Below, in pieces: positions 45,401 to 46,260 of a stretch of DNA of 64,000 nucleotides. Position 1 is the first letter of the stretch. Each line of letters begins with the position of its first letter. The notes under the pieces are model-generated. The model saw only the letters and a list, made by a program, of their open reading frames with translations, was not told where the DNA came from and ran no database searches. Position numbers and translations under genes: made by a program. Location of the stretch: NCBI GenBank assembly GCA_019044685.2, contig JAGTXX020000011.1:1054001-1118000 (forward strand), in the 5' to 3' direction. This DNA is from Nannochloris sp. 'desiccata'. Its lineage: Eukaryota; Chlorophyta; Trebouxiophyceae; Chlorellales; Chlorellaceae.

Positions 45401-46119
45401 GATGAAGAATTTCTTTTTTCAAGTAGTTTGCCGTGTTTTTATTTTAAGGCAGTAAGGGAGCACCACCCCTCTCTGGAAGATCTCTTTCCTTGCGTTTTTA
45501 CCCTGCTGTTACAAGGACCGCATAATAATCAACCTTTCCCACCCAGAATCTTGTAATCATTGCATTGTAATACTATTCAGACTTTGCTCACAAGAGAACT
45601 CTTCCCTTTGAAGAGGCACTTCAATCAAAACCCATTCCTTATGTGGCAATGCGGGTTTCTACTAGTTTGGATACGCAAAAATGTAAACATTACAAAGTAT
45701 ACGACTTGGGATGCGCGTGGCAACTTTAAAGTACAAGCACCAGAGGTCAAAAATTCAACAACTGCCACCTTACCGCCATCGCCGCCGCTGAAAGACCATC
45801 ACACGAGCAACTGTCCTCTGGATGGTGTTATAAATGCATACTATACCTCTGTAGACCTATATTAAACGGTTATTAAGGTATGTTCACAGCAATTGGACAT
45901 TTGATTGGATTCGAGATTGCTGAGATTCAATTGATTCGATAAACGAATCATTTCAAGGGTGGCTGTATGGTACCAGATACGGATATTAATGAAGTTGAAA
46001 TGGATAAAAATAAAATATGCATGCGAGAGAGGCAAAAAATTTTGAAAAAAGTGAAAAATTAGCATTTTGATAATATATTTATATGAAATTACTAAGGATC
46101 ATCTGAAGCTGAAATAGCA
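45401..46119 (+). other. Intergenic upstream of the tRNA
   Basis: About 720 nt. A 101-codon ORF (45560-45865) has no recognisable family or clear coding character. From about 45900 the DNA becomes AT-rich and leads into the Pol III-like TATA element before the tRNA. Confidence 0.45.
46071..46085 (+). promoter_or_regulatory. TATA-like element upstream of the permuted tRNA
   Basis: The run TAATATATTTATATG lies about 35-50 nt before the first tRNA base. Upstream TATA-like elements accompany tRNA genes in several algae. Inferred from position and composition only. Confidence 0.4.
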
Positions 46120-46204
46120 CCGACAAGACCCGGGTTCAATTCCCGGTGGGGGAATCCTACCATACAGTCCTTCATAGTATAGTGGCTAGTATATGTCGCT
46201 CTCA
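46120..46204 (+). tRNA. trnE-CUC: Permuted tRNA-Glu(CUC): 3' half precedes 5' half
   Basis: The 3' half (tRNA positions 38-73) occupies 46120-46154 and the 5' half (positions 1-37) 46168-46204, with a 13-nt spacer. Reordered, the 72-nt RNA folds fully. Acceptor TCCTTCA pairs with TGGGGGA (7/7, two G-U). The D stem GTAT/GTAT pairs as in eukaryotic tRNA-Glu/Asp. Anticodon stem TGTCG/CGACA pairs 5/5. T stem CCGGG/CCCGG encloses TTCAATT. The loop reads CTCTCAC, giving anticodon CUC for Glu, and the discriminator base is A. Box B (GGTTCAATTCC) thus lies upstream of box A (TAGTATAGTGG). Leader GAAAT (46111-46115) can pair with trailer ATTTC (46205-46209), giving a relaxed bulge-helix substrate for splicing endonuclease at the 37/38 junction. 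Permuted tRNA genes are known from red algae (Cyanidiales) and some green algae. Confidence 0.88.
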
Positions 46205-46209
46205 ATTTC

Positions 46210-46229
46210 TTTTGTCCATTTCTATTTTT
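46210..46229 (+). terminator. Pol III T-run terminator
   Basis: TTTT at 46210-46213 and TTTTT at 46225-46229 follow the tRNA 5' half directly, as expected if transcription runs 3' half to 5' half. Confidence 0.5.
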
Positions 46230-46239
46230 CTCCAGTAAA

Positions 46240-46260
46240 AGTGGCTAGTATGTCAGTCTC
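46240..46260 (+). pseudogene. Decayed second copy of the tRNA 5' half
   Basis: AGTGGCTAGTAT followed by GTCAGTCTC repeats the D-loop-to-anticodon part of the 5' half at 46181-46203, with a two-base gap and two substitutions. The acceptor part before it is not conserved. Probably a remnant of a duplicated tRNA half. Confidence 0.55.

Follow-up and report, generated by a model that had tools for sequence, protein, structure and literature searches.

Can a tRNA gene that is encoded with its 3′ half ahead of its 5′ half be a working gene, and does it stand alone in its genome? This question is raised by a locus in a window of 64,000 nucleotides from Nannochloris sp. 'desiccata' (C11:1054001-1118000, ~45% GC), which a first-pass annotation had read as a permuted tRNA-Glu(CUC) gene. 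Permuted tRNAs have been described from few algae and one archaeon, with a maximum of 11 per genome in the table of a 2014 review (PMC3978253). Judged on its sequence and on that of the surrounding genome, the window gene is very probably a working circularly permuted nuclear tRNA-Glu(CUC) gene of type II (junction 37/38) and one of a large set.

The permuted tRNA-Glu(CUC) locus

The 3′ half of the gene (nt 38-73, positions 46120-46154) comes first and carries the 3′ strand of the anticodon stem, the variable loop, the T arm with the B box, the acceptor 3′ strand and the discriminator A. An intervening spacer of 13 nt (46155-46167), free of TTTT, bridges the acceptor 3′ and 5′ strands and is followed by the 5′ half (nt 1-37, 46168-46204), which comprises the acceptor 5′ strand, the D arm with the A box, the anticodon 5′ strand, the anticodon CUC and A37. 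These features, like all others given below for the window, are on the + strand, and the gene has the make-up of type II: 3′ half first, both halves on the same strand, a short spacer and a junction at 37/38. Rejoining the halves yields a tRNA of 72 nt in which 21 of 21 stem pairs form (acceptor 7/7 with two G-U, D 4/4 with two G-U, anticodon 5/5, T 5/5), with CTCTCAC as anticodon loop and CUC as anticodon; our recount gives the same values as the earlier one for the acceptor, anticodon and T stems and for the loop, and the D stem is newly counted. The rejoined sequence keeps U8, A14, G15 with C48, G18G19, U33, A37 and the T-loop TTCAA, consensus positions that belong in part to general knowledge of tRNAs. 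Part of this checklist was taken from the 2014 review (PMC3978253). A TTTT that begins 6 nt past the 5′ half (46210-46213) is the presumed RNA polymerase III terminator, and a second T run (T5) follows at 46225-46229. Ahead of the 3′ half, at a distance of 36-46 nt, a TATA-rich stretch (46074-46084) is a possible promoter element.

In the encoded order neither ARAGORN nor Rfam finds any tRNA in the window. The rejoined 72-mer is called tRNA-Glu(CUC) by ARAGORN, which is lenient in this use, as it also accepted 130 of 474 false joins between halves of different tRNAs. Our structure finder, which counts stem pairs, gave the gene a score of 21, against a best score of 20.5 and 34 matches at or above 19 in 1.846e9 strand-bases of Markov sequence with the dinucleotide make-up of the window; its working threshold of 19 corresponds to ~0.8 false matches per genome of such size. 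The covariance model R2, trained without the window gene, scored it at 52.6 bits (rough E 3.3e-15), whereas the training set of a second model, R1, included it among others. With both halves placed, all stem pairs present and this R2 score, the permuted tRNA-Glu(CUC) reading is borne out. Minimum-energy folding proved uninformative as proof of a cloverleaf, which neither the rejoined tRNA nor the pre-tRNA yields: the fold of the 72-mer keeps the acceptor and T arms and loses the D and anticodon arms (z -1.0).

The region of the gene is adjoined by a cysteinyl-tRNA synthetase gene, whose best named relative is a record labelled Syzygium grande (53% identity); identities are 59-73% to Micractinium and Chlorella, 62% to Picochlorum and 85-90% to metagenome proteins.

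Permuted and conventional tRNA genes in the genome

We made a partial survey of the genome (21,550,525 bases in 18 contigs) that covered one junction, 37/38, and permuted genes lacking introns. Two short T-arm patterns that fit either gene order matched at 91 and 50 places, of which 133 of 141 were inspected; most of these places are chance matches, because reversed control patterns matched at least as often (109 and 78 places). Permuted loci were identified by the covariance models and the structure finder, both designed for the 37/38 junction only. The result was 24 intact permuted loci representing 23 distinct tRNAs, against ~10 distinct tRNAs in normal order, within this partial survey of 37/38 breaks. 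The two T-arm patterns alone led to 22 permuted and 9 conventional intact loci; the Cys, Tyr, Val and Gln genes were detected by other routes.

The permuted set consists of Glu CTC, Cys GCA, Leu CAA, Leu AAG, Leu TAA, Ala TGC, Ala CGC, Gly TCC, Phe GAA, Ile TAT, Ile AAT, Lys CTT, Tyr GTA, Arg TCG, Arg ACG, Arg CCG, Arg TCT, Arg CCT, Ser GCT, Ser AGA, Trp CCA (two identical copies), Met CAT and Thr TGT. We read the permuted Met CAT as the elongator and counted it separately from the initiator Met, and Leu TAA was detected by model and placed by hand, with an anticodon stem of 4/5. The conventional genes are Val TAC, Gln CTG, Met CAT, Ser GCT (twice, in duplicated contig stretches), Ser TGA, Ser CGA, His GTG, Pro TGG and Asp GTC, together with one locus of ambiguous anticodon, L024; six of the conventional genes contain introns. 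ARAGORN labelled the Ser CGA gene Pro(cgg), and we reassigned it by eye. L024 itself (L024:1328-1522) is in normal order and has a long insert (122 nt, ARAGORN Ile(aat)), and its acceptor stem is Pro-like by eye.

The degenerate loci L059 (Trp-like) and L134 (Leu-like) and the T-arm-like hairpins L029 and L140 were excluded before counting, as was a Thr prediction by ARAGORN in L058, overlapping the Trp locus there; the Trp copy L058 was left out of the per-gene tests only, being identical to that in L057. The third permuted Trp copy (L059:287-413), near the end of contig C8, contains extra single bases and is either a pseudogene or a sequence error, and the two hairpins have no recognisable complete tRNA, that in L029 being organelle-like by eye. 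The permuted Cys(GCA) gene (L010:1618-1704) has, as placed, a variable loop of 12 nt, which is long for tRNA-Cys; its 3′ half may contain a short insert, or a boundary may be misplaced.

ARAGORN assigned the expected anticodon to 23 of the 23 permuted genes when rejoined, a result that says little by itself because of the mis-joined halves that also pass, and in linear mode it called 0 of 23 as encoded. Its default circular mode was used in several locus scans, which is why it reported the permuted Arg CCT gene on the short piece L135. On the 22 permuted loci other than the window gene, R2 placed 19 at the same position, one off register (L048, 21 bits) and missed two, L103 and L107 (spacers of 48 and 55 nt), both of which R1 found; its end positions deviate by up to 16 nt at long variable arms. 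Two conventional loci reach 23 bits with R2, so matches below ~25 bits are non-discriminating, and the identification of L048 comes from the structure finder alone.

The Rfam tRNA model gave 16 matches genome-wide at a loose threshold, and permuted genes appeared in this search merely as weak matches under the cut-off. Supplied with 20 loci that include 16 permuted genes, Rfam at its own thresholds recovered none of the 16, an indication that permuted tRNAs escape standard tRNA searches. The first-pass annotation had predicted further permuted tRNAs elsewhere in the genome, and the 23 distinct ones from this partial 37/38 survey amply agree with that. It had also called for a check for a standard tRNA-Glu(CUC) gene; none was found in the partial inventory. 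By its D-arm pattern the window gene is the single exact match genome-wide, and the 6 of 19 one-mismatch places that were inspected hold no tRNA. It is likely, on these incomplete counts, that most nuclear tRNA genes of this alga are permuted.

Junction, termination and proposed maturation

Comparison of nt 32-37 and trailer +1 to +6 with leader -1 to -8 showed that the strongest three of 96 combinations were 34:-5, 32:-3 and 35:-6, which together make one antiparallel helix. The register that pairs loop 32-35 with leader -3 to -6 was chosen for testing after this result was seen. It has 52 of 92 Watson-Crick pairs, compared with 33.5 (sd 3.5) for swapped leaders, and 0 of 100,000 shuffles reached 52 (p about 1e-5; p = 2e-4 with G-U allowed), although such permutation p-values are optimistic because related genes are not independent. 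Four registers shifted by 1 or 2 had no pairing excess. With G-U counted, 4 of the 23 genes have four pairs, 7 have three, 9 have two and 3 have one. The window gene has 3 of 4, formed by leader nt -6 to -3 (46114-46117) with anticodon-loop nt 35-32, and its -3/32 pair is G:C. Three intron-bearing conventional tRNAs of the same genome form 3, 4 and 2 of the four pairs that this register allows. Across the set, this co-variation describes a bulge-helix (hBH) motif at the junction, putatively the recognition helix of the endonuclease.

At pair 32:-3, 11 of the 23 genes have C:G and 4 have U:A (p = 0.003). In the account of PMC8479045, the A-I pair joins the pyrimidine six before the 5′ splice site to the purine three before the 3′ splice site, and human TSEN requires it for cutting at the 3′ site; by its place in the sequence, 32:-3 is the position of this A-I pair used by tRNA splicing endonuclease. 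The earlier suggestion that the flanks GAAAT and ATTTC pair beside the junction stands for the window gene, but does not extend to the set: pairing between leader and trailer is no stronger for own than for swapped partners (means of -1.90 and -1.83 kcal/mol, p = 0.40), which rules it out as a set-wide motif, and the conserved helix is instead that of leader with anticodon loop.

In 23 of 23 permuted genes the 30 nt that follow the 5′ half include a TTTT, compared with 16% of background 30-mers, and 6 of 23 have one in the 30 nt upstream. A TATA-like upstream element has been reported for permuted tRNA genes of C. merolae. In our set TATA occurs in 4 of 22 upstream stretches, which is no enrichment over background, and a common upstream TATA box is not apparent; the window gene has the TATA-rich stretch nearby. 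A/T-rich hexamers are enriched upstream, for example AAATTT (7/22, 5.8-fold).

These results bear on three other explanations of the locus. That the gene is a non-functional leftover, a scrambled or tandem tRNA fragment that is not expressed while the true tRNA-Glu(CUC) gene lies elsewhere in normal order, is improbable in our estimation. Degenerate permuted copies do exist in the genome (L059 and L134), a decayed 5′ half sits downstream of the window gene and the tRNA inventory is incomplete; however, the stems of the window gene are all intact, 23 different tRNAs share the order, the terminator and the co-varying recognition helix, and the partial inventory yielded no conventional Glu gene. 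Chance adjacency of two tRNA-like pieces, or an inversion mis-joined in assembly, has nothing found in its favour and a negligible probability, as no match of equal score occurred in the 1.846e9 strand-bases of null sequence and 23 different tRNAs on many contigs have the same order.

It is also conceivable, yet highly unlikely, that the halves are two genes whose transcripts are trans-spliced like the split tRNAs of Nanoarchaeum, instead of parts of one permuted transcript. The halves meet at 37/38, as do those of the split tRNAs of N. equitans in the description of PMC4090602. Their adjacency is by design, since the finder seeks adjacent halves only; against separate transcription, however, spacers are 5-73 nt long (median 15) and TTTT occurs in 0 of 23 (2.75 expected, P(0) = 0.048) and in none of the halves, while the terminator follows the 5′ half in all 23 genes. 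A single permuted transcript remains our preferred reading of the window gene.

The genome encodes parts of the machinery that such a transcript would need. There are two genes with the endonuclease catalytic domain PF01974, a Sen54-type domain at two places and two RtcB genes, one of them in two pieces. The Sen54-type domain is found twice probably because contig C13 duplicates part of contig C6. C13 and the end of C6 share the Sen54-type gene and Ser(GCT) together with flanking sequence, in inverted order, and C13 may represent an alternative haplotype of this end of C6. A homologue of Tau95 of TFIIIC, which we take to be TFC1, is also encoded (42/144 positions, 45.9 bits), and the inverted control boxes are therefore not tied here to a loss of TFIIIC. 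For C. merolae, the 2014 review gives the TFC1 and TFC3 homologues of TFIIIC as unidentified (PMC3978253).

From the encoded endonuclease subunits and RtcB and from the recognition helix at the junction, we infer the following maturation route. RNA polymerase III would produce a single RNA composed of leader, 3′ half, spacer, 5′ half and trailer, stopping at the T run. In the folded pre-tRNA the two ends would close the anticodon stem and the acceptor stem would form a hairpin over the spacer, while leader nt -3 to -6 would pair with nt 32-35 of the anticodon loop, an arrangement like that at the 3′ splice site of ordinary tRNA introns. Cleavage by the Sen endonuclease would take place after 37 and before 38, and a ligase, for which RtcB is encoded, would join 37 to 38 to give a circle, from which RNase P and tRNase Z would remove the spacer before CCA addition. 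As permuted genes outnumber the normal-order genes found, the cell must probably form circular RNA to produce many of its tRNAs.

If permuted genes are the nuclear majority, as the balance of the evidence suggests, most cytosolic translation would need circular pre-tRNAs made by splicing, RNA polymerase III would work with the B box before the A box while TFIIIC is kept, and the 37/38 permutation would have been fixed repeatedly in one lineage with an anticodon-intron helix inherited from tRNA introns. Such a genome would open to testing the origin of permuted genes, a few of which have relic half-copies beside them, the way in which polymerase III reads inverted control boxes with TFIIIC present, and the question whether most decoding comes to require the enzymes of tRNA splicing.

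Known permuted tRNAs, origin and neighbouring repeats

The closest likeness is to the nuclear permuted tRNAs reported from green algae in 2010, which as tabulated in Soma 2014 (PMC3978253) number 3-6 per genome and also have a junction at 37/38 and a short spacer; five anticodons are shared (Cys GCA, Leu TAA, Arg TCT, Ser GCT and Ser AGA). In Nannochloris 23 distinct permuted tRNAs were found, of which Glu(CUC) and 14 others are absent from Table 1 of that review for any organism. C. merolae resembles Nannochloris in its large permuted set, with 11 of 43 tRNA genes permuted in the 2007 study, a proposed upstream-directed transcription and a demonstrated circular intermediate (via PMC3978253). 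Its junctions are at four sites, in contrast to the 23 found in Nannochloris at 37/38, the only junction searched, and Nannochloris has the Tau95 homologue. The archaeon Thermofilum pendens, as the review presents it (PMC3978253), has two permuted tRNA genes with a junction at 59/60 and an encoded CCA, and shares with Nannochloris the order of 3′ half first, a splicing-endonuclease junction and a permuted Tyr(GTA).

Among trebouxiophytes, permuted tRNA genes are described for Auxenochlorella UTEX 250-A (Plant Cell 2025, PMC12636532 / PMC12633428), according to which it has, like Nannochloris, a streamlined genome and a tRNA set that is incomplete by standard search; its permuted set may be as rich. 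It was the one trebouxiophyte with permuted tRNAs found in the open-licence literature searched, in which, judged by titles and abstract starts, no treatment of the tRNAs of the Nannochloris genome was found. The known range, which the first-pass annotation had given as Cyanidiales, some prasinophytes and a chlorarachniophyte nucleomorph, now has to include the trebouxiophyte Auxenochlorella. Permuted tRNAs are a known kind; relative to the sources cited, what is new is the scale of the set, the co-variation of loop and leader and the Glu isoacceptor, which the 2014 table lacks.

In one model given in PMC3978253, an intron-bearing tRNA gene duplicates and the outer halves are then lost, and O. 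lucimarinus is cited there for a permuted Cys gene with an additional 5′ half downstream. The window gene is alike in having downstream a degenerate second copy of the 5′ half, from D arm to anticodon loop (46234-46260), with a score of 15, which none of 474 swapped controls and none of 3172 other window stretches attained (best of the latter 14); this is probably a remnant of local duplication. Ala(TGC) has a relic 5′ half (score 13; 1 of 474 controls), and Met has a relic 3′ half downstream, the side predicted by the duplication-loss model (score 12; 1 of 474 controls). In 4 of 92 tests the gene's own half scored above every control, about chance by our reckoning, so relic halves are suggestive only and were rejected as general proof of an origin by duplication and loss; Glu, Ala(TGC) and Met alone stand out in size. 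T-arm-like stretches just upstream of the permuted Thr(TGT) gene (L103:301-311) and of the conventional His(GTG) gene (L006:1482-1493) are possibly further relic halves; the former resembles Thr no more than it does certain other tRNAs (own score 14, best control 17).

Repeats were observed beside several of the tRNA genes. The E1 family consists of long direct repeats with a period of ~1.14 kb, copies ~95-99% alike and, in the copy checked, one ORF of at least 60 aa (71 aa). Copies at L027:1-1351, L040, L055, L107, L127 and L129 each end 84-147 nt upstream of a tRNA gene, permuted in five cases and conventional in one, and the orientation is the same every time. E1 is thereby present at 6 of 34 places with a tRNA and at 0 of 98 without (Fisher 2e-4); an E1 end also lies ~86 nt upstream of the permuted Arg CCT gene. 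E1 is not a tRNA marker in every instance, as none of four further copies inspected has a tRNA beside it. It may represent integration directed to polymerase III genes, in which case the initiation side would be upstream of the 3′ half.

A second family, E2, carries the B-box-like GGTTCGAGTCC and ends 80-101 nt upstream of the permuted Cys, Arg CCG, Phe and Arg TCT genes (copies at L010:1115-1537, L048:426-611, L109:1613-1747 and L116:1610-1724). It is present at 4 of 34 tRNA places and 4 of 98 others (p = 0.20), a comparison that is biased because E2 contains the search pattern. Among the four non-tRNA places, that in L070 is ~760 nt from a conventional His gene, and those in L030, L069 and L101 are without a tRNA in the stretch inspected. 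Inside contig C7, L147 holds a head-to-tail array of the 5-base unit TTTAG, with related stretches around it.
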